This document shows, one piece after another, positions 868-11,042 of a stretch of 64,000 nt of DNA. Origin of the DNA: Glutamicibacter nicotianae (GTDB lineage Bacteria; Actinomycetota; Actinomycetes; Actinomycetales; Micrococcaceae). The notes beneath the pieces are model-generated. The model ran no database searches, was not told the origin of the DNA, and worked only from the letters and a program-made list of their open reading frames with translations. The first letter of the stretch is position 1, and each line of letters starts with the position of its first letter. A program made the position numbers and the translations under genes. The stretch lies in the NCBI RefSeq assembly GCF_006539525.1, contig NZ_BJNE01000005.1, forward strand, positions 1-64,000, written 5' to 3'.

Positions 868-2300
868 GTCCCTACACGCGGCGTGCGCACGTGTTGCGGC
901 CTGCCCATGGCCAGCCAGCGGGCCAAATACACCCGCAGCAGCCGGCCGCCTTCATGCAGGTCGCCGCAGAGCAGCGCGAAGATCCTCGCCAGGCGCTTAT
1001 GCAGCGTCTGGCGCTCCAGATAGAGCTGATGGGCTGCATTCGTCGTATTGCATCCGGCATCCAGCCACACCAGCAGCGTGGCCAGCCGCACGTTGCCGCG
1101 CTGGTCCTCGTACTACAGCAAGTTCCCCAGCTGCTCTGTAATGAAATGATCCAGATCCTCCCGGTGCCCGAACTTCGCCGCCAGCCTCTCCAGCGCATGG
1201 TCCGACGCATCGCGCACCCTGCCCTGGTCCAGGGTGGACTCGGGAAATGATTCCAAGACCAGTGCCTCGGCCAGGGACCACTGCGCGCGCCAGATCCCCT
1301 CGGCCGAAGGGCCGGCGCAGCATTCAACCGACAGTCCCGCCAGGCCGCGGTGCAGGCTGGCGATCGCTTCCCGCCGGGCCCCGCGCGGATCACCCGAGGC
1401 GAGCGCGAGCAGCGCCTGGAACCGCCCGCTCTCCAGCTAGGTGCGGATTGAGGGCAGCGCCAGGTGCAGCTGGCGCGGATCCTGGCCATGTCGTAGCTTT
1501 GGAATACCAGCATCATCACCGGCCCGTCGCTGCCGATCTGCGCCTGCCGCGCCAAGTCAGCCGCGAAGAGCCCGTCGGCGCCGATGGCAATGGCCTGCAG
1601 CAGCGACGTATTGGCCGCCTGCACCGCACTCGGCCGGTAATGCTGGGCATAGGCCAGGCCGACGATGCTGCCCAACCGTTTGGCCACCAGCTCCAGCCGC
1701 TCAGCGGACACCGACTCGGAGCCGAGGAGCACCAGCCGGGCTGCAGTATCGCTGCCGATGAACAGGTCCGTGGCCACTTCCAACGCTTCGGCCTGCGCCA
1801 CGCCAGCCTCGGCCGCCAGACTGGATTCGGCAATCATCCGGCCGCCCAATTCCTACAGCACCGCGCACGATCCCAGTGCCTGCTCGATCATTTCCAGCAG
1901 CTGCCGCAAGTTGGGTCCAGCCGAGGCCATGTGCCTGGCCAGCAGCTGGGCAATCTCGTCGTCCTGCTGCAGGGCCGAGGCGTACTCGGAGACGATGCGG
2001 CGGTTGGTTCCCTCGGCCAGTTCCACAAAGGGCACGGTGGCCTCCAGCCGGTAGAGCGGCAGCCCGAGCTGCTGGGCATGCTCGATGAACCGCTGCGGGA
2101 TCCTGGTTTCCGGAACCAGCGGCTCGAGCACCAGCGCCGCCACGCCGCGCTCGGACAGCGAATCCAGATAGGCCAGCTGCGCCTCGGGCTTCAGGTGGAA
2201 AACGGCTTCCCCGGTCGTGAGCAGCAGCTCGTTGCCGTGCAGCAGGCCGGCAATGCCGAACTTCTGCACAACTCCAATGCCTCCATTTCGGCCCGGGTCG
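864..2300 (-). pseudogene. Decayed PucR-family transcriptional regulator
   Basis: Reading leftward, the remnant has a PucR N-terminal domain signature (LLHGNELLLTTGEAVF), a central region, and a C-terminal PucR helix-turn-helix (WLDAGCNTTNAAHQLYLERQ, decoded at about 1000-1065). The frame is broken by TAG codons at 1853-1855, 1437-1439 and 1113-1115, and by a frameshift near 1478-1490. The first residues of the N-terminal domain are missing at the junction with the permease remnant, near 2280-2318. PucR proteins control purine or pyrimidine catabolism, which fits the adjacent permease remnant and cytosine deaminase. The whole unit is very unlikely to yield a working regulator. Confidence 0.85.
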
Positions 2301-2317
2301 CCACCCGGGGCGGCATC

Positions 2318-2764
2318 ATGGCAGTGCCCTACTTCATTTTCGAGCGCAAGCACAAGGACTTCTCCTACCCGTTCCTCGATCCGAAGTCCTCACGCCTGAA
2401 GTCGGTCAACTGGTCGGCGTTCGTCGCCTTCGCCGCCGGCATCGTGATGACCTGGATGTGCATGTACGGCTCGGTTCCCGCGCTGCAGGGTTCGATCGCC
2501 AGCGCCGTGGGCGGCATCGATTTCTCATGGCCGGGCGGAACGCTCACCGGCGCCGCGGTCTACTTCGCCCTGGGCTACCCCCGCTTCCGGGCCCGGATCA
2601 ACGCCGGGGTTCCGCTGGGACTGAAGATGGACCTGTCCGAGGGTGCATTCATCAAGGAGTTCAGCAGCGCCGAGGACCCGCGCAAGGAGCAGCATGTGGC
2701 CAGCAGGCCGGCTGCTCTTCCCGAACCAGATGCCGCTCCAGAGAAGGCCCCGGCTGGCAGCTAA
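2318..2764 (+). pseudogene. C-terminal remnant of an NCS1-type nucleobase permease
   Basis: The last 148 codons of a permease remain, starting around MAVPYFIFERKHKDF and containing two hydrophobic segments (VNWSAFVAFAAGIVMTW and a segment ending GAAVYFALG), followed by a charged cytoplasmic tail. NCS1 cytosine/purine/allantoin permeases have about 450-500 residues and 12 membrane segments, so roughly two thirds of the gene is gone. The missing part faces the missing 5' end of the divergent pucR remnant. One deletion across the divergent promoter region would explain both losses. An ATG is present at the join, but the product could not form a transporter. Confidence 0.75.
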
Positions 2765-2847
2765 CCTGCTGGAATAGAATATTCGGCTGGCGCCGACTCC
2801 GGAACCCCGGACACGGCGCCAAGCACGTACAAAGAAAGGACGACCCG

Positions 2848-3312
2848 ATGACCCAGGAAACGATGGACGAGACAGGCTACGAGGCGGCACTGCAGGCTGC
2901 GCGCGCCGGCGCTGCCGAAGGCGGCGTGCCGATCGGCTCCAGCCTGGCCGGAGCGGAAGGAGTCATCGCGGCCGGGCACAACCGGCGGGTGCAGCAGGGC
3001 GACCCGACCGCGCATGCCGAGATCGACGCTCTGCGCGCGGCCGGGCGGCGCAGCAGCTACCGCGACCTGACGCTGTACACCACGCTGGCTCCCTGCGCCC
3101 TATGCTCCGGGGCCATTGTCCTGTTCAAGATCCCGCGGGTGATCGTCGGCGAGGACCGCACCTTCAGCGGGGAGATCGCCTGGCTGCGCGAGCGCGGCGT
3201 GCTGGTCGAGGTCCTTCAGGACCAGCGCGCCGAAGCGCTGATGGAGCGCTTCATCGCCGAGCACCCCGAAATCTGGAACGAAGATATTGCCGAGGAACCA
3301 GCTGGCAGTTGA
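2848..3312 (+). CDS. Cytosine deaminase, fungal FCY1-like type
   Basis: This 154-residue zinc deaminase has the HAE motif (TAHAEIDALR) and the PCxxC motif (TLAPCALCSGAI). The C-terminal half closely resembles yeast Fcy1 (TTLAPCALCSGAIV.., IPRVIVGEDRTF, ending in an NEDIAEE-like segment). It would hydrolyse cytosine to uracil and ammonia in the cytoplasm. An AAAGAAAGGA ribosome site precedes the ATG by a few bases. The gene is intact although the permease remnant 83 bp upstream and the PucR regulator are broken. A guanine or tRNA-adenosine deaminase is less likely given the Fcy1-like C-terminus. Confidence 0.85.
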   Translation: MTQETMDETGYEAALQAARAGAAEGGVPIGSSLAGAEGVIAAGHNRRVQQGDPTAHAEIDALRAAGRRSSYRDLTLYTTLAPCALCSGAIVLFKIPRVIVGEDRTFSGEIAWLRERGVLVEVLQDQRAEALMERFIAEHPEIWNEDIAEEPAGS

Positions 3313-3426
3313 CTGCTTCATCACGCCCCGCAACACCGGGCAATGTCTGGCCGCCCGCGGCGGAGCTATCTACTGCGGGGTCGCGGGTCGCGGAAGTAGC
3401 TCAGCAGGTATCGGAAATTAAAGCTC

Positions 3427-3455
3427 TTGACTGTGACATGCACCACTGGAATGAT
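3427..3455 (+). promoter_or_regulatory. Promoter of the creatininase-BCCT operon
   Basis: TTGACT (3427-3432) and AATGAT (3450-3455) are separated by 17 bp. The sequence around the -35 box (CTTGACtGTGAC) is almost the same as in the creatinase promoter, and an operator starts 5 bp after the -10 box. Confidence 0.6.
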
Positions 3456-3460
3456 TTAGC

Positions 3461-3485
3461 GCAACAGTGTTGCACTCATCGCAAC
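3461..3485 (+). promoter_or_regulatory. Tripartite operator, GCAAC-N3-GTTGC-N7-GCAAC
   Basis: A 13-bp palindrome GCAACAGTGTTGC (3461-3473) is followed after 7 bp by another GCAAC half-site (3481-3485), just downstream of the promoter. The same arrangement is found at 6252-6276 before creatinase. The local IclR regulator is the natural candidate to bind it; that link is inferred. Confidence 0.65.
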
Positions 3486-3553
3486 TAAAATTTTCCAGGA
3501 TCTCGCAAGGCGATCACCCTTTCCCAACTCCTGACATTGCCTAGGAGGCAACG

Positions 3554-4348
3554 ATGCCCTCTGTGTTCATCGAAGAACTCGACGCCGAATCTTACGCCAC
3601 AATGGTGGCCCGCGAAGGCTCGACCATCATCATCCCGACCGGTGCCACCGAGCAGCACGGCCCGCACATGCCACTAGGCGTGGACGCCATGCTGTCCAGG
3701 GCCATCGCCGGCATCGTGGCCGAGAAGATCGGAGCCTTGGTAGCACCGGTCTTCTCCTACGGATACAAGTCGCAGCCGCGTTCCGGCGGCGGCAACCACC
3801 GGGTCGGCACCACGAGCCTGGGCGCCGCGGCCCTGACTGGCATGGTCGACGACGTGGTCACGTCCTTAATCGCCCAGGGCTTCACGAACGTAGTCGTGCT
3901 CAACGGCCATTTCGAGAACTACCAGTTCATCTACGAGGGCCTTGACAACGCCGTCGCCCGCGCCCGCGCCACGGGGTCCGAATCCCGTGCCGTACTGCTG
4001 TCCTATTGGGACTTCGTCGACGAGGCAACGTTGGAAAAGGTATTCCCTGACGGCTTCCTGGGATGGGATATCGAGCACGGAGGGGTGCTTGAGACCTCGC
4101 TGATGCTCCTGTTGCATCCGCAGAAAGTGGACATGACCCGCGTGGTGGACCACCCGCCGGCCAAATTGACCCCGTACGACATCTTCCCCGAGGATCCCGC
4201 GCGCACCCCGCCTACCGGCTGCCTCTCCAGCGCCGCCGGCGCCAGCGCCGAAAAGGGCCAACTGCTGCTGGATGCGGTCACGGCTGCCGTAGCCGATTCG
4301 CTCCAGGGCGAGCTGCTCTTGGGATCCATCCAGGTGGAGGTCGAGTAG
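3554..4348 (+). CDS. Creatininase (creatinine amidohydrolase)
   Basis: The enzyme interconverts creatinine and creatine in the cytoplasm. The 264-residue sequence follows known bacterial creatininases along its length: the metal-binding GATEQHGPHMPLGVDA stretch, YGYKSQPRSGGGNH with the GTTSL motif, NGHFEN, and LSYWDFV followed by the GWDIEHGGVLETSLML segment carrying the second set of metal ligands. An AGGAGG ribosome site precedes the ATG. The gene is separated by one base from the BCCT transporter, so the two are probably co-transcribed. Its promoter and operator match those of the creatinase gene 2 kb downstream, which supports a dedicated creatinine pathway. Confidence 0.93.
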   Translation: MPSVFIEELDAESYATMVAREGSTIIIPTGATEQHGPHMPLGVDAMLSRAIAGIVAEKIGALVAPVFSYGYKSQPRSGGGNHRVGTTSLGAAALTGMVDDVVTSLIAQGFTNVVVLNGHFENYQFIYEGLDNAVARARATGSESRAVLLSYWDFVDEATLEKVFPDGFLGWDIEHGGVLETSLMLLLHPQKVDMTRVVDHPPAKLTPYDIFPEDPARTPPTGCLSSAAGASAEKGQLLLDAVTAAVADSLQGELLLGSIQVEVE

Positions 4349-4349
4349 C

Positions 4350-6077
4350 ATGTCCCTCAACGAAACCGAACGGAAGAACGCCCGGAAGGGCGAGGGCTCA
4401 AGCCAGGCGCCCGTCGAAGTGCCCCGTTTCATGGGACGCGTGATCCCGCCCTTGGATCGCCTGCTCATCCGGATTATCCCGCCCGCATTGATCGTCGCGG
4501 TGCTGCTCTGGGTACTGCTTTCCCCCGAGCAGGCATCGGCGGCCATCTCCGAGATGCGCACCTTTGTCACCGGGAAATTCACTTGGCTGTTCATCCTGTA
4601 CTCGGTCTTCACCGTGGTGATGTGCCTCTGGCTGTCGATGAGCAAGGTCGGCAGAATCCGCCTGGGCGGGCCCAAGGCCAAGCCCGAGCACAGCAAGTTC
4701 GCCTGGTACTCCATGCTCTTCGCATGCGGCCAGGGCATCGGCCTGATCTTCTGGTCCGTCGCAGAACCGATCATGCTGCGCGACGAGAACCCTGTCATCC
4801 CGTCCACCACGCCTGCCGGCGCAGCCGAAGGCGGGATCGTGTGGACCTACTTCCACTGGGGACTGACCGCCTGGGCCATGTACTGCGTGGTGGCGGTCTG
4901 CCTGGCCTACTCGCACCACAACCTGGGCAAGACACTGACCTTCCGCGAAGCCACCGTGGACATCCTGCCCCGCTGGTCGCGACGCGGCGCGGGCGTCATC
5001 ATCGAGCTGCTGGCCATCATCGCCACCGTGCTAGGCCTGGCGACCTCGTTCGGATTCGCCACCTTGCAATTCACTTCCGGGCTCTCCTCGTTCACCGGCC
5101 TGTCTTCCAGTCCTGCCCTGTGGCTGGTCGTCATCGCGATCTTCGCGGGCATCACTTGCATCTCCGCTATCGTGGGCATCAGCAAGGGCATGGCGCGCAT
5201 TTCCAGCCTGAACTCCATTCTGAGCATTGTGCTGGTCGGTGCGGTGCTGGTCTTCGGCCCTACGCTGTATATCGTCTCGATGCTCTCGCAGACCTTTGGC
5301 AGCTTCATGGCCAATTTCGTGAATATGAGCCTCTGGACCGATGCCAGCATCACCTCCAGCCCCCTGGCCAGCTGGCAGGACAGCTGGAATGGCTGGTGGA
5401 CGGTATTCATCTGGTGCTGGGTCATCGCCTTTTCGCCGTTCGTGGCAGGGTTCATCGCGCGGATTTCGCGCGGCCGCACCATCCGCGAATTCGTCATCGG
5501 CGTGACCATCATCCCCACGCTCATCGTGATGATCTGGGTCGGAGTCATCGGGGCGAGCGCGATCTACTATGACGATGCGAGCAACCGGAACATCAGCGAT
5601 GCCGTGTCCGCGGACACCTCGGCCGGCCTGTTCGCGATGCTCGAGCACCTTCCGCTGGTCGGCACGATCCTGCTGGTGGTCTCCACCATCCTGGTCGCGA
5701 CCTACTATGTCACCTCGCTGGATTCCGGGATCTATGCGCTCAGCGAGTTCGTCTCGGCGCCAAACAAGTCCGGACCGGTCTTCCGCGTGGTGCTGGTGCT
5801 GAGCATCGCCACCGTCGCCACGGTGCTGCTCACCCTGGGCGGCACGGCGGTGGTCGATACGGTCCAGACGGGCACCATCATCGGAGCCTTCCCGTTCTCC
5901 TTCGTGATCATCTTGATGATCATCAACCTGATTCGGCGATTGATCAAGCGCGACAAGGCAATCAAGCAGCTGGAGAAGGACATCAACAATCCCGACCCGA
6001 ACCTTGTTTTCGTCGCTGACCCCGACGGCGATGGTGCGATCCTCAAGGAGGTCCCAGGACAGGAACGGCACACCTAG
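4350..6077 (+). CDS. BCCT-family transporter, probably for creatinine/creatine or a betaine-like compound
   Basis: This 575-residue protein has about 12 membrane helices and the BCCT signature region (WTVFIWCWVIAFSPFVAGF followed by ARISRGRTIREFV), with the tryptophan-rich segment that forms the substrate pocket. BCCT carriers import quaternary ammonium or related compounds, usually with Na+ or H+. It starts one base after the creatininase stop codon, so the two genes are probably translationally linked. Creatinine, creatine or sarcosine are likely substrates from context. A hairpin terminator follows at 6099-6146. The C-terminal tail is charged and cytoplasmic. Confidence 0.9.
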   Translation: MSLNETERKNARKGEGSSQAPVEVPRFMGRVIPPLDRLLIRIIPPALIVAVLLWVLLSPEQASAAISEMRTFVTGKFTWLFILYSVFTVVMCLWLSMSKVGRIRLGGPKAKPEHSKFAWYSMLFACGQGIGLIFWSVAEPIMLRDENPVIPSTTPAGAAEGGIVWTYFHWGLTAWAMYCVVAVCLAYSHHNLGKTLTFREATVDILPRWSRRGAGVIIELLAIIATVLGLATSFGFATLQFTSGLSSFTGLSSSPALWLVVIAIFAGITCISAIVGISKGMARISSLNSILSIVLVGAVLVFGPTLYIVSMLSQTFGSFMANFVNMSLWTDASITSSPLASWQDSWNGWWTVFIWCWVIAFSPFVAGFIARISRGRTIREFVIGVTIIPTLIVMIWVGVIGASAIYYDDASNRNISDAVSADTSAGLFAMLEHLPLVGTILLVVSTILVATYYVTSLDSGIYALSEFVSAPNKSGPVFRVVLVLSIATVATVLLTLGGTAVVDTVQTGTIIGAFPFSFVIILMIINLIRRLIKRDKAIKQLEKDINNPDPNLVFVADPDGDGAILKEVPGQERHT

Positions 6078-6098
6078 GCAGTGGATCCGGCATCGGAA

Positions 6099-6146
6099 CG
6101 AAGGCCGCGGAACTCGTCATATTGAGTTCCGCGGCCTTCGCATTTT
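6099..6146 (+). terminator. Rho-independent terminator after the BCCT gene
   Basis: A 17-bp perfect stem (6099-6115 with 6124-6140, arms ending GGAACTC/GAGTTCC) has an 8-nt loop and is followed by CATTTTCC. It lies 21 bp after the stop codon. Confidence 0.8.
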
Positions 6147-6218
6147 CCGGTCACTTCCGGGATTCATACAGATCATTCCAGATTTACCGCTCTGCAGAAA
6201 AAGTTTTCACAATCGCCC

Positions 6219-6247
6219 TTGACAGTGACGCGGGGCACACATAATCT
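6219..6247 (+). promoter_or_regulatory. Promoter of the creatinase gene
   Basis: A near-consensus promoter with TTGACA (6219-6224), a 17-bp spacer and TAATCT (6242-6247). The operator begins 4 bp downstream. Confidence 0.75.
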
Positions 6248-6251
6248 AAAT

Positions 6252-6276
6252 GCAACGGCGTTGCAGTGAGCGCAAC
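6252..6276 (+). promoter_or_regulatory. Second copy of the tripartite operator
   Basis: GCAACGGCGTTGC (6252-6264), then 7 bp, then GCAAC (6272-6276). Half-site sequence, spacing and position after the -10 box match the creatininase operator. Confidence 0.65.
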
Positions 6277-6372
6277 ACGTACTTCTTCTCCGGCGATTCC
6301 CATGAATCCTCGCAATCCATCTGATTGGGCCGGCCTCCCTTGACAGTTGATTTCCCACAAGGAGCCAAAACC

Positions 6373-7626
6373 ATGACTACCGCCAATATCGCCACCAATG
6401 TTTCCGAACTGGCCCGACTGAAGACCCTGCACAACGGCGCCAAGGAGCAGCTGACCTTCTCGGATGCCGAGTTCGAGCGCCGCCTGGCCGGCCTGCGCCA
6501 GATCATGGCCGCGAAGTCGCTGGACGCGGTCATCCTGACCAGCTACCACGGCATCAAGTACTACTCGGACTTCCTGTACACCACCTTCGGCCGCAACTAC
6601 GCGCTGGTGGTCACCGCCAGCAACTCCACCACCGTCACCGCGAACATCGATGCCGGCATGCCATGGCGCACCAGCTACGGCGACAACATCGTGTACACCG
6701 ACTGGAAGCGCGACAACTTCTTCTACGGCCTGCAGGAAGCACTTAAGCGCGACGGCGTGAAGGCAACCCGGATCGGCGTGGAAGACGACTTCCTGCCGGG
6801 CCGCACCCGCCAGCAGATCGCCGACACCTTCGACGGCGCAACCCTGGTGGATGTCTCGCAGGACGCCATGAGCCAGCGCATGATCAAGTCCGCCGAGGAA
6901 ATCGAGGTCATCAAGCACGGTGCACGCATCGGCGACCTGGGCGGCGAAGCCATCAAGGCAGCGATCCGCGAAGGCATCAGCGAATACGAGGTCGCACTGA
7001 TCGGCACCGAGGCCATGGTGCACGAGATCGCCAAGACCTTCCCGCACCGCGAAGTGCGCGACACCTGGGTCTGGTTCCAGTCCGGCATCAACACCGACGG
7101 CGCCCACAACTGGGCCACCACCCGCAAGCTTCAGCGCGGCGACATCCTGTCGCTGAACTGCTTCCCGATGACTTCCGGCTACTACACCGCACTGGAGCGC
7201 ACCCTGTTCCTGGGCGAGCCGGATGCCCGCAGCCTGGAACTGTGGAACATCAACGTCGAGGTGCACAAGCGCGGCCTGGAGCTGATCAAGCCAGGTGCCG
7301 TCTGCAAGGACATCGCCGCCGAGCTGAACGAGATCTACATCGCCCACGGCCTGCTGCCGAACCGCACCTTCGGCTACGGCCACTCCTTCGGCGTGCTCTC
7401 GCACTACTACGGACGCGAAGCAGGCCTGGAGCTGCGCGAGGACATTGAGACTGTCCTGGAGCCAGGCATGGTCGTCTCGATGGAACCGATGATCACCGTC
7501 ATGGACGGCGAGCCAGGTGCCGGCGGCTACCGCGAGCACGACATCCTGGTGATCAACGATGACAACACCGTTGAGAACATCACCAAGTTCGGCTTCGGTC
7601 CGGAGAACAACATCATCGACGCCTAA
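6373..7626 (+). CDS. Creatinase (creatine amidinohydrolase)
   Basis: The enzyme hydrolyses creatine to sarcosine and urea. The 417-residue protein has the two-domain M24 pita-bread fold without the peptidase metal site. It matches known creatinases throughout: TSYHGIKYYSDFLYTTFGR, NIVYTDWKRDN, MIKSAEEIEVIKHGARIGDLG, WFQSGINTDGAHN (containing the catalytic His) and GYGHSFGVLSHYYGREAGLE. The ATG at 6373 follows an AAGGAG site; an upstream in-frame start at 6325 lacks one. It has its own promoter and the operator shared with creatininase. A strong terminator follows. No sarcosine oxidase or urease lies in the window, so later steps are elsewhere. Confidence 0.95.
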   Translation: MTTANIATNVSELARLKTLHNGAKEQLTFSDAEFERRLAGLRQIMAAKSLDAVILTSYHGIKYYSDFLYTTFGRNYALVVTASNSTTVTANIDAGMPWRTSYGDNIVYTDWKRDNFFYGLQEALKRDGVKATRIGVEDDFLPGRTRQQIADTFDGATLVDVSQDAMSQRMIKSAEEIEVIKHGARIGDLGGEAIKAAIREGISEYEVALIGTEAMVHEIAKTFPHREVRDTWVWFQSGINTDGAHNWATTRKLQRGDILSLNCFPMTSGYYTALERTLFLGEPDARSLELWNINVEVHKRGLELIKPGAVCKDIAAELNEIYIAHGLLPNRTFGYGHSFGVLSHYYGREAGLELREDIETVLEPGMVVSMEPMITVMDGEPGAGGYREHDILVINDDNTVENITKFGFGPENNIIDA

Positions 7627-7637
7627 AGGCGAGCGAT

Positions 7638-7673
7638 AACCGTGGGGCGGGGCCCGAACCCCGCCCCACGGTT
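7638..7673 (+). terminator. Terminator after creatinase
   Basis: A 15-bp perfect GC-rich stem (7638-7652 with 7659-7673, arms AACCGTGGGGCGGGG and its complement) closes a 6-nt loop about 11 bp after the stop codon. Confidence 0.8.
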
Positions 7674-7820
7674 GCCTTAACCAACTGATGCGCGGCATGC
7701 ACGGGGGCTGCGCCAAGAACCGAGGACCACCTACCTGGTCCATAGGAACACTTCATCATTCCAGCGGCAAAGAAGCCAGGACTGGCCCAAGCCGCTACCC
7801 TCCAGAGGCGGTTTCACACC

Positions 7821-9173
7821 ATGAACGATTCCAGCAACTCCCCACTGCAAACCACTGACGCAACCGCGGCCGCGCCGGCCACCGGCACAGCTACGTCCCG
7901 TACCGTTGATTCGAAGACCCGCCGCAAGGTGATCACTGCCAGCTTCATTGGCAACTTCGTGGAGTGGTTCGATTACGCGGCCTACGGCTATCTGGCCGTT
8001 ACCATCGCCGCGGTGTTCTTCCCCAGCGACGATCCGCAGGCGGGTCTGCTGATGACCTTCGGGGTCTTCGCCCTCTCCTTCCTGGTCCGCCCCATTGGAG
8101 GCTTCATTTGGGGGCATCTGGGCGACAAGATCGGCCGGCGCGAGGCCCTGTCTTGGTCGATTCTGCTGATGACCGGCGCCACCTTCTGTATCGCGCTGCT
8201 GCCTGGCTACGCGTCCATCGGTTTCGGAGCGCCGCTGCTGCTCTTGGCCTTGCGGCTGGTCCAAGGCTTCTCCGCCGCCGGCGAGTATGCCGGAGCCTCG
8301 GCCTTCCTGGTCGAGTACGCCCCAGCCAACCGGCGCGGCCTGTACGCAGCAGTCGTTCCGGCAAGCACTGCCACCGGCCTGCTTTTCGGTTCGTTGATGG
8401 CCGCCGGGCTGACCGGGTTGCTCTCAACTGAGGATCTGGAGACCTGGGGCTGGCGCATTCCGTTCCTGCTGGCGGCTCCCTTGGGGCTAATCGGCCGCTA
8501 CATCCGCACCAAGCTGGAAGACTCTCCAGCCTTCGTTGAAGCATCCGAGTCCGGTGCACCTGAAAGCTCCCCGGTCGGGTCATTGCTGAAGAACCACTGG
8601 CGCAAGCTGCTCCAGGCCGCAGGGGCGGTCCTGCTGAACGCCGTCGGCTTCTACGTCATCTTGTCCTACATGCCGACCTACCTGTCCGAGGAACTCGGAC
8701 TGGACGCCACTCGTTCCTACCTGGCCACCACCGTTGCACTGCTGACCTATGTTGGTTTCATCTTCCTCACCGGCATGCTTTCGGATCGCTTCGGCCGCAG
8801 GCGGGTATTGATCAGCGCATCAGTCCTGTTCGTCCTCTTCACCGTGCCAGCCTTCATGGCTCTGGAATCGGGAAACTTCCTAGTGATCGTCCTGGTCCAG
8901 ATTCTGCTCGGCGCAATGCTCACGCTCAACGACGGCACGCTACCAAGCTACCTCGCCGAAATGTTCCCGACCAAGGTCCGCTACTCGGGCTTCGCCGTTT
9001 CGTTCAATCTCTCGAATGCGCTCTTTGGCGGAACCGCGCCATTCGTCGCAACCTTGCTGATTGCCACCAGCGGCAATGTCCTGGCTCCAGGTTGGTACTT
9101 GATGGCTGCAGCCGTTGTTTCGCTCGTGGCGGTAGCCTGCTCAGTTGAAACCAGCCGCAAACCGTTGGCATGA
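7821..9173 (+). CDS. MFS transporter, metabolite:H+ symporter (MHS) subfamily
   Basis: The 450-residue protein has 12 predicted membrane helices and typical MHS features: NFVEWFDYAAYGYLA in helix 1, the DKIGRREAL loop after helix 2, a long central loop and DRFGRRRVL after helix 8. MHS carriers (ProP- and KgtP-like) bring in organic acids, betaines or proline with protons. It lies between creatinase and the IclR regulator on the same strand, so creatine, sarcosine or a related compound is a likely substrate (inferred). A GAGG sequence lies upstream of the ATG. The 195-bp region after creatinase includes potential hairpins, but I recognise no known riboswitch. Confidence 0.87.
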   Translation: MNDSSNSPLQTTDATAAAPATGTATSRTVDSKTRRKVITASFIGNFVEWFDYAAYGYLAVTIAAVFFPSDDPQAGLLMTFGVFALSFLVRPIGGFIWGHLGDKIGRREALSWSILLMTGATFCIALLPGYASIGFGAPLLLLALRLVQGFSAAGEYAGASAFLVEYAPANRRGLYAAVVPASTATGLLFGSLMAAGLTGLLSTEDLETWGWRIPFLLAAPLGLIGRYIRTKLEDSPAFVEASESGAPESSPVGSLLKNHWRKLLQAAGAVLLNAVGFYVILSYMPTYLSEELGLDATRSYLATTVALLTYVGFIFLTGMLSDRFGRRRVLISASVLFVLFTVPAFMALESGNFLVIVLVQILLGAMLTLNDGTLPSYLAEMFPTKVRYSGFAVSFNLSNALFGGTAPFVATLLIATSGNVLAPGWYLMAAAVVSLVAVACSVETSRKPLA

Positions 9174-9204
9174 GCCGTAGGATAGTAGCAACTCAGGAGG
9201 GAAA

Positions 9205-9978
9205 ATGACTGAAACCCGTAGCGAGACACGAGGTGCCTCAGTAATCGTCAACGTGCTCGATGTGCTTCGATGCTTCACCGTTGAGCATCCGGTCGTCGGC
9301 GTCACCGAAATCGCTGAGCAGGTCGGCCTCCACAAATCCAGCGTCTCGCGCATCCTGGCCACCCTCGAGCAGGAACGCGTCGTGGACCGGGACGAGGAAA
9401 CCCGCAAGTACCGTTTGGGAGTCGGACTGATTGCCATCGCCGGCCCATTGCTGGCCAACCTGGACGTGCGGCAGGTGGCCTACCCCCTGCTGGAAGACCT
9501 GCGCGAAACGACCGGCGAGACCGCGGTGCTGAACATCTGGGACGGCAGCGAGTCGATTTCCGTGGAACAGCTGTCATCCACCCATCCGGTGAAGCACACC
9601 TCGGTCATGGGATCCCGGTACCGTTCGGGGCTGAGCGCCACCGTTCAGGTATTCCTCGCCAACGAGGAACCAACGCGCCGCGCGGAGCTGATCTCCAGCG
9701 GCGAGATCGATCTAGCCGGCATCCCCCCCGTTGAATACGAGGCACGCCTGGATCTGGTGCGCGAACGCGGCTATGCGGTCAACTACGGAGAGACCTCCGC
9801 AGAAGAAGTCGGGGTGGCCGCCGGAATTCTCGATCACCGCGGAGAGCTTGTCGCCTGCGCCATGACCGCCGCCCCGTACTACCGCATCGGCGCCGACGAA
9901 CTGGAGCAGCTGTGCTCCAGCACCCGGATCGCGGCACGGCGCATCAGCACGAGGCTCGGATACCACACGGAAGGATAG
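9205..9978 (+). CDS. IclR-family regulator, candidate regulator of creatinine catabolism
   Basis: The 257-residue protein has an N-terminal winged helix (about 10-75; VTEIAEQVGLHKSSVSRILATLEQERVV) and a C-terminal IclR effector domain (about 85-255; signatures VTSV-like HPVKHTSVMGSRYRSGLSATVQVFLA and DHRGELVACAMTA). IclR proteins bind small acids and act as repressors or activators. A GGAGGG ribosome site precedes the ATG. It is the only regulator in the creatinine cluster, so it is the best candidate for the GCAAC-N3-GTTGC operators at 3461 and 6252. The effector may be creatine, creatinine or sarcosine; this is inference. Confidence 0.9.
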   Translation: MTETRSETRGASVIVNVLDVLRCFTVEHPVVGVTEIAEQVGLHKSSVSRILATLEQERVVDRDEETRKYRLGVGLIAIAGPLLANLDVRQVAYPLLEDLRETTGETAVLNIWDGSESISVEQLSSTHPVKHTSVMGSRYRSGLSATVQVFLANEEPTRRAELISSGEIDLAGIPPVEYEARLDLVRERGYAVNYGETSAEEVGVAAGILDHRGELVACAMTAAPYYRIGADELEQLCSSTRIAARRISTRLGYHTEG

Positions 9979-9980
9979 CC

Positions 9981-10397
9981 ATGGACCCGTTCGAAGCACG
10001 TGATGCCTACGTCTTCGACTACCGGATGCACGAAGGCTCGGCCATGAAAGTCAGCCACCATTTCGCCGGGCACACCGGGATGCCGGTGGCCATCCAGACC
10101 TGGGTGATTGAACCAGGCGGCTTCGAGGGCTTCCACCGCCACGAGGGACAGGCGGCGTTGCAGGAGTTCTACCAGGTGCTCGAGGGCCAGGCGACGATGC
10201 GGGTGGGCGAGCGCGAATACGAGTTGGGCCCAGGCGACAGCATCTTGGCCGATGCAGGGGTGGACCACGACCTGCGCAATACCGGCACGGATGCCCTGCG
10301 AGTCCTAGTCGTTTGGGGGCCTCCGGGCGATGCCGACTTCTCGGCCTTCGGTTCGCACCAGCTAGCGCAACGGGCCCGGGCCGGCGGCGTGGCTTAG
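9981..10397 (+). CDS. Cupin-domain protein
   Basis: The 138-residue single-domain cupin has motif 1 (GGFEGFHRHEG...QEFYQVLEG, with metal-binding His and Glu) and a motif-2-like segment (GDSILADAGVDHDLRNTG). It begins 2 bp after the IclR stop codon and is probably co-transcribed. Small cupins like this can be isomerases, dioxygenases or sensors. The context suggests a link to creatinine catabolism, but no specific reaction can be assigned. ATG 9981 is preferred over an upstream start that overlaps iclR. Confidence 0.75.
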   Translation: MDPFEARDAYVFDYRMHEGSAMKVSHHFAGHTGMPVAIQTWVIEPGGFEGFHRHEGQAALQEFYQVLEGQATMRVGEREYELGPGDSILADAGVDHDLRNTGTDALRVLVVWGPPGDADFSAFGSHQLAQRARAGGVA

Positions 10398-10454
10398 CTG
10401 GGAGTATGCCCAAGGCTCTTTTGCCGTGTGCATGCCCGGTGCTGAAGTGGTTCC

Positions 10455-11042
10455 ATGAGTTACAACATCGGCTATTTCGTTGGTTCGCTCGCCTCGAACT
10501 CCATCAACCGCGTCGTGTCCAAGGCGTTGATTGCCTTGGCACCCGAAAACCTCAGCTTCACGGAAATCCAGATCGGCAACCTGCCCTTGTACAGTGCTGA
10601 CTACGATGCCGACTACCCGGAAGCAGGGACCGCTCTGAAAAAGGCCATTGAAGCCTCGGACGGGCTGCTGTTCATCAGCCCGGAGTTCAACCGGTCGATT
10701 CCCGGTGCGCTGAAGAATGCCATCGACTGGGGTTCCCGGCCCTGGGGCACCAATTCCTTCGCCCGCAAACCCACCGGCCTGCTCGGCGCCTCGCCCGGAG
10801 CCATCGGCACAGCGGTCATGCAGTCCAGCATGCGCAGCGTGCTCAGTTTCCTGGATGCCCCGCAGTTGAATTCCCCCGAGGTCTATCTGCAATACCGCCC
10901 CGAGGATTTCGGCGAGGACGGGAGCATCAGCAACCCTGACACGGAAAAGTTCCTTGCGCACTACATAGGCGAGTATGCGGCGTTCGTAGAGCGCGTGCTC
11001 GACTCAACCGCAGCGGGCCACATCGGCGACGAAGGTATGTAG
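10455..11042 (+). CDS. NADPH-dependent FMN reductase-like flavoprotein
   Basis: The 195-residue protein has a flavodoxin-like fold with the family pattern YNIGYFVGSLASNSINR at the N-terminus (FMN phosphate loop), LFISPEFNRSIPGALKNAIDW, and GLLGASPGAIGTAVMQ. Related ChrR/YieF/Azo-type enzymes reduce quinones, FMN, chromate or azo compounds with NAD(P)H in the cytoplasm. The gene stands alone, convergent with the RibD-like gene. Exact substrate unknown. Confidence 0.85.
   Translation: MSYNIGYFVGSLASNSINRVVSKALIALAPENLSFTEIQIGNLPLYSADYDADYPEAGTALKKAIEASDGLLFISPEFNRSIPGALKNAIDWGSRPWGTNSFARKPTGLLGASPGAIGTAVMQSSMRSVLSFLDAPQLNSPEVYLQYRPEDFGEDGSISNPDTEKFLAHYIGEYAAFVERVLDSTAAGHIGDEGM

Follow-up and report, generated by a model that had tools for sequence, protein, structure and literature searches.

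A shared three-box operator, predicted to bind a neighbouring IclR-family regulator, precedes the creatininase and creatinase genes of Glutamicibacter nicotianae

Operators built of three boxes are a known form among IclR-family regulators. The main text of Suvorova and Gelfand 2021 (PMC8222616) predicts such sites for 32 IclR-family orthologous groups and lists PcaU, PobR and HmgR as regulators for which they have been identified, with PcaU and PobR named as transcriptional activators in the titles of its references. The same text describes the PcaU/PobR sites of Acinetobacter as a palindrome with an external direct half-site, the third box being needed for PcaU binding, and leaves open whether that box reflects an alternative dimerisation. 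Regulated creatinine and creatine degradation in an actinobacterium has been described for Corynebacterium glutamicum ATCC 14067, where the regulator is AmtR, a TetR-family nitrogen regulator with a CTAT-N6-ATAG site, and where the main text makes no mention of “IclR” (PMC8864220); the literature on related regulation also includes SoxR in Bacillus (PMC4941409). Here we describe a 64,000-nucleotide stretch of Glutamicibacter nicotianae (assembly GCF_006539525.1, contig NZ_BJNE01000005.1, positions 1 to 64,000, forward strand; hereafter the window) in which the genes for creatininase and creatinase are each preceded by the same tripartite element. We propose, with a probability of roughly 0.8, that both elements are operators of the IclR protein encoded at 9205-9978, which would repress both promoters until an effector is present. 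The features on which this proposal rests are the following:

3427..3455, forward strand: creatininase promoter, TTGACT-N17-AATGAT, found by a consensus promoter scan
3461..3485, forward strand: predicted three-box IclR operator of the creatininase-BCCT operon, GCAAC-N3-GTTGC-N7-GCAAC, exact match, kept in relatives
3554..4348, forward strand: creatininase (creatinine amidohydrolase; TIGR04448, 346.6 bits, cut-off 235)
6219..6247, forward strand: creatinase promoter, TTGACA-N17-TAATCT, read from the sequence, absent from the promoter-scan list
6252..6276, forward strand: predicted three-box IclR operator of the creatinase operon, GCAAC-N3-GTTGC-N7-GCAAC, exact match, kept in relatives
6373..7626, forward strand: creatinase (creatine amidinohydrolase; PF01321, Creatinase_N, and PF00557, M24; best solved chain 1chm, creatine amidinohydrolase, E 1.2e-161)
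9205..9978, forward strand: IclR-family regulator, proposed from co-occurrence to bind the operators (PF09339, HTH_IclR, 50.5 bits, and PF01614, IclR_C, 73.1 bits, both over cut-off)

The two 25-bp elements share spacers of 3 and 7 nt despite differing spacer bases (AGT and ACTCATC at 3461-3485, GGC and AGTGAGC at 6252-6276), and the 17-bp spacing between -35 and -10, which the first-pass annotation had reported together with the elements, was found at both genes, although the promoter scan around the creatinase promoter gave two matches, no more than shuffles yield. The operator begins 5 nt past the -10 hexamer at creatininase and 4 nt past it at creatinase. With a transcription start about 7 nt past the -10, box 1 would cover +1, and this placement, read in the first pass as a repression geometry, recurs. 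A scan of the complete assembly (43 contigs, 3.55 Mb in all) found the motif twice without a mismatch, never with one mismatch and 11 times with two, compared with 10 sites at up to two mismatches for the reversed control motif; the exact sites thus exceed chance, whereas the two-mismatch count matches the control, and no further regulon member was found in the genome at one mismatch. More degenerate matches were left unused, because neither the three-mismatch scan (7 found, 3.1 expected from shuffles) nor the half motif with one mismatch (5 found, 3.0 expected) was clearly above the shuffles. A leader RNA or riboswitch was also considered for the region and dropped, as no Rfam family reached its gathering threshold in a scan of 2800-10500.

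The first-pass annotation had suggested searching related genomes for the motif, and it is this comparison that ties the element to the IclR gene. Within the genus, 12 of 18 genomes carry the exact motif (reversed control 0), and the same 12 carry creatininase, a creatinase at least 93% identical and an IclR protein at least 65% identical; the other six have no creatininase, no creatinase of such identity and only distant IclR proteins. Across 295 genomes of the family, searched with thresholds of E 1e-100 or better for creatinase and E 1e-40 or better for IclR, the exact motif was present in 113 (reversed control in 1), creatinase in 124 and an IclR match in 126. Motif and IclR match occurred together in 111 genomes, the motif alone in two, the IclR match alone in 15 and neither in 167; for motif and creatinase the corresponding numbers were 109, 4, 15 and 167. 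Both genomes with the motif but no IclR match (sites L385:6698 and L386:7649, the latter near a contig end) lack a searched creatine gene downstream. One genus genome, G003, contains the creatine cluster twice. Its second copy (L077, G003:C1:3091000-3107000) has partly decayed and carries no exact operator: creatininase is incomplete and the IclR gene fragmented, next to a creatinase that shares 93% identity with the one in the window.

We then surveyed one creatinase locus for each creatinase genome outside the genus (n = 112). On the gene strand the motif was exact at 121 sites and had one mismatch at 47 and two at 24, as against five exact and 21 one-mismatch sites on the opposite strand. 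Every one of the 121 exact gene-strand sites lies at most 450 bp upstream of a gene for creatine use, namely the MFS transporter gene mfs (74), creatinase (cre, 31), the BCCT transporter gene bcct (8) or creatininase (crn, 8). An IclR match was located on the creatinase fragment in 100 of the 112 loci. The site also precedes mfs genes that lie away from creatinase: seven further loci carry an exact site, at 12-13 kb from creatinase (L392-L394), on another contig (L389-L391) or far away on the same contig (L388). Conversely, the two creatinase genomes that have no IclR match (G034 and G046) have no gene-strand site at the creatinase locus even at two mismatches. As these sites were picked by exact match, it would be circular to argue from how well their 15 fixed bases are conserved, and we rely instead on co-occurrence, on the unselected flanks and on a GTG-N8-CAC element treated below.

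Beyond the family set, 80 IclR loci from named records, many of them of species already covered above, gave an exact site in 69 and a site within one mismatch in 73; in the remaining seven the IclR match begins at most 2.4 kb from the upstream end of the locus, and the promoter region probably lies outside it. The exact site was also found in Brachybacterium, Nocardiopsis xinjiangensis and Geodermatophilus chilensis. In an order-wide sample, a stricter YGCAAC pattern was present in 16 of 297 genomes (reversed control 0), eight of them outside the family, and in all seven of these extra-family loci that were inspected the site precedes mfs (5) or cre (2).

Several observations weigh against this assignment. 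The genomes are not phylogenetically independent, and the genome-level tables mix two regulators and two site types, as the IclR search merges a paralogue (see below) and the exact motif spans both kinds of site. Fifteen family genomes have an IclR match without an exact site; in nine of the 13 creatinase loci examined among them, a creatine gene is preceded by a site with one mismatch, which leaves L204 and L230 with an unassigned one-mismatch site only, L242 with a two-mismatch site only and L166 cut at a contig end. Seven of the 112 loci lack an exact or one-mismatch site before mfs, cre, bcct or crn: a contig end cuts L166 and L263 at creatinase, L190 and L199 (the loci of G034 and G046) have no IclR match, L204 has its one-mismatch site without an assigned gene and no IclR on the fragment, and L230 and L242 have the IclR gene without a good site. 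The idea of an operator shared by both genes and served by the neighbouring IclR protein is nevertheless strongly supported by co-occurrence, synteny, the sites before remote transporter genes and the lack of a site in the two creatinase genomes without IclR. We conclude that the operator is real, well conserved and of a known kind, and that comparative genomics points with high confidence to its regulator.

In comparison with the published IclR sites, the element has three boxes in alternating direction and a cognate protein with HTH_IclR and IclR_C domains that is linked to the sites by gene position and co-occurrence. Boxes 1 and 2 form the AAC-N3-GTT pair at both sites, in keeping with the group 2 core (AAC-N3-4-GTT) apart from different flanking consensus letters, and boxes 2 and 3 (GTTGC-N7-GCAAC) form the GTT-11-AAC pair of a group 1 subgroup, with inner letters that differ from the published consensus. 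Alternating boxes, both pairs and a regulator gene beside its targets are thus shared with the three-box operators of PMC8222616, while the targets here are creatinine and creatine genes, and “creatin”, “sarcosine” and “Arthrobacter” do not appear in the main text of that study. With PcaU and PobR, as presented in the same main text, the locus shares the palindrome with its external direct half-site; those systems have another box sequence, serve aromatic catabolism and are described as activators. The window protein scores 77 bits against a cut-off of 284.75 for the PcaR/PcaU/PobR subfamily model TIGR02431, so that the site resembles this type in its working while the protein, by family search, is no member of the subfamily. 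Its closest solved chain, 3obf, aligns to the C-terminal part, and in the helix region HKS (residues 43-45) and SR (48-49) are invariant among 112 + 20 sequences, with residues 46 and 47 varying. The first pass knew of no described operator of this form for creatinine catabolism. The three-box form itself has been published (main text of PMC8222616), and novelty of the form is not supported; for creatinine catabolism in particular, searches of the open-licence literature, including the main text of PMC8222616, gave no account of an IclR regulator for creatininase or creatinase, for creatine or sarcosine, for N-carbamoylsarcosine or for creatinine use in Glutamicibacter.

On the proposed mechanism, an IclR dimer or tetramer would sit on the three boxes when no inducer is present, using the AAC-N3-GTT palindrome of boxes 1 and 2 and the GTT-11-AAC palindrome of boxes 2 and 3. 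Bound over the expected start point, it would exclude RNA polymerase from the creatininase-BCCT and creatinase promoters. The creatinase promoter would also serve the MFS, IclR and cupin genes, probably by read-through, which would make the regulator autoregulated. The effector that releases IclR is most likely creatine, with sarcosine as a possibility. Creatinase and IclR occur together in 122 genomes. A creatininase scoring over the family cut-off is missing from 40 of them, 30 of which have retained the exact operator; this makes creatinine unlikely as the sole inducer and favours creatine or a later product.

The regulon may be wider in other genera. Eighteen operator pairs lie less than 400 bp apart, 16 of them spaced by 134-155 bp and the others by 63 and 98 bp. 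In eight pairs (L220, L221, L231, L235, L238, L252, L254, L255) a divergent match to glyA or sarcosine oxidase starts at most 50 bp from the upstream copy, and we read that copy as a probable operator of the divergent gene rather than as a partner in DNA looping. Family searches identified the divergent gene in two representatives, as sarcosine oxidase beta in L254 (TIGR01373, 618.6 bits, cut-off 529.45; best chain 2gag_B) and as serine hydroxymethyltransferase in L235 (NF000586, 603.8 bits, cut-off 335). These arrangements suggest that the regulon in other genera may extend to sarcosine and glycine use. A divergent sarcosine oxidase or serine hydroxymethyltransferase gene near an operator copy was also seen in L227, besides the eight loci above.

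Both promoters of the window carry a further element, located between -35 and -10:

3433..3446, forward strand: CRP/GlxR-like palindrome GTG-N8-CAC, creatininase promoter
6225..6238, forward strand: CRP/GlxR-like palindrome GTG-N8-CAC, creatinase promoter

The element recurs at 22/22 genus sites and at 106/121 exact sites outside the genus; all six fixed bases are present in 127 of 140 distinct exact sites, compared with 0.18% of shuffles, a comparison that ignores relatedness. It usually begins 6 nt past the start of TTGAC, with offsets of 5, 7 or 10 in some sites, and is therefore not strictly part of the -35. The genome encodes a CRP-type protein (helix SRETVNKALAEF) whose best solved matches are chains of the CRP/FNR family, which we take to be actinobacterial. 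GTG-N8-CAC could thus be a second operator, for this CRP/GlxR homologue, that adds carbon-state control to the IclR switch, most simply repression by exclusion; we regard this as a tentative reading at somewhat less than even odds. It is favoured by the contrast between promoter types, with the element at 119/139 creatine-branch exact sites and at 0/17 sites of the amidase branch described below, and by the spacing, which is that of the GlxR consensus TGTGA-N6-TCACA given in passages of PMC7999487. According to those passages GlxR represses aceA and activates the gene studied there, the latter speaking against this reading; in comparison with the sites they describe, the candidate element sits between -35 and -10 and has an imperfect second half-site. 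That half is indeed the weaker one: in 129 sites preselected for at least five of the six GTG/CAC bases, A follows GTG in 87% and T precedes CAC in 35%. The element is missing from 20 of the 139 creatine-branch sites, and TTGACNGTGA-N7-CAC, a pattern that includes the -35, occurs nowhere else in the genome, unlike the site of a broad global regulator.

Less probable, and in our view unlikely, is that the same IclR protein binds the boxes but acts mainly as an activator, its inducer switching expression on in the manner of PcaU and PobR. This has its precedent in the three-box sites identified for PcaU, PobR and HmgR and in the cited titles that call the first two activators (main text of PMC8222616), which counts against repression. 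The promoters themselves point the other way, with TTGAC in the scanned -35 interval at 127/139 creatine-branch exact sites and an operator that begins close past the -10. A protein bound just past the -10 is expected to block polymerase, not to recruit it. It is very improbable that another regulator altogether, for example a CRP/GlxR protein or the GntR protein encoded at 208-867, binds the GCAAC boxes, even though many relatives have a gntR match close to the cluster and the genome encodes a CRP homologue. Site presence tracks the IclR gene, L190 and L199 keep a gntR match and creatinase without an IclR match or a gene-strand site within two mismatches, and the box cores agree with IclR consensuses and not with TGTGA-N6-TCACA.

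Repression by the neighbouring IclR protein is thus the reading we retain, and its less expected parts are the extra palindrome and a paralogous regulator. Seventeen exact sites precede, by 24-37 nt, genes that are 93-100% identical to the amidase gene of L264, whose product has N-carbamoylsarcosine amidohydrolase 1nba as its closest solved relative (E 1.1e-168):

L264:11683-11707: example of an amidase-branch operator with AGCAAC/GTTGCT boxes, found also in L266, L267 and others

The flanks of these sites differ from those of the creatine branch (three exact sites without an assigned gene were excluded from the branch counts). A T after box 2 together with an A before box 3 is present in 17/17 amidase sites and in 1/139 creatine-branch sites (Fisher p 8e-22, ignoring relatedness), an A before box 1 in 16/17 and 2/139, respectively, and the R...Y pair in 0/17 and 116/139; the amidase loci were partly chosen for their different-looking site, so that the sample is not blind. 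A second IclR protein (IclR2), 60-100% identical to the copy in L266, is encoded on the same fragment in 16 of the 17 amidase loci. In each of these 16 genomes the family-wide IclR search also gave a match of 51% or more, and they probably encode the creatinase-route regulator (IclR1) as well. In a tree, IclR2 forms a clade (support 0.975) that is nested in IclR1 and includes one sequence labelled IclR1; under that rooting IclR1 is not a clean sister group. We consider it fairly probable, on comparative grounds, that in Micrococcaceae-type actinobacteria paralogous IclR proteins split two creatinine routes by means of orthogonal three-box operators, mostly YGCAAC/GTTGCR for creatinase and AGCAAC/GTTGCT for the amidase, with the CRP/GlxR-type input confined to the creatinase route.

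The rest of the cluster in the window consists of:

4350..6077, forward strand: transporter of the BCCT family, a probable importer of creatine or creatinine (PF02028; substrate inferred from context)
6095..6149, forward strand: strong hairpin closing the creatininase-BCCT unit (-40.5 kcal/mol, z -7.5; not listed by the terminator scan)
7637..7674, forward strand: strong hairpin past creatinase, a possible partial terminator without a clear T-run (-43.4 kcal/mol, z -4.3 for 7620-7700; not listed by the terminator scan)
7821..9173, forward strand: MFS (ProP-like) transporter, putative creatine importer (family searches; substrate inferred)
9981..10397, forward strand: cupin protein at the cluster end (PF07883; synteny)

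The transcription units are probably crn-bcct and cre(-mfs-iclR-cupin), the latter with probable read-through past the hairpin after creatinase; in many other genera mfs has an operator of its own. The first pass had called the IclR protein the only regulator in the cluster, which holds inside 3554-10397, while just upstream a GntR gene is intact at 208-867 and a PucR-type gene is broken at 872-2353 on the minus strand. The latter lies in pieces in different frames, and of an NCS1-type permease gene (2255-2764, forward strand) the C-terminal part alone remains. Both genes are intact in three relatives of the same genus, where they stand between the GntR gene and a deaminase gene; in the family search of these copies, the permease of L078 scored under the NCBIfam cut-off for NCS1 and over the PF02133 cut-off.

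Our results assign a regulator, an operator and a regulon, at the level of prediction, to bacterial creatinine and creatine use, whose enzymes serve in clinical creatinine assays. If the proposal is true, the creatine-responsive repressor-operator pair would be a part for biosensors. The paralogue pair, in turn, would offer a natural test of how IclR proteins discriminate between near-identical three-box sites and of alternative dimerisation at the third box.

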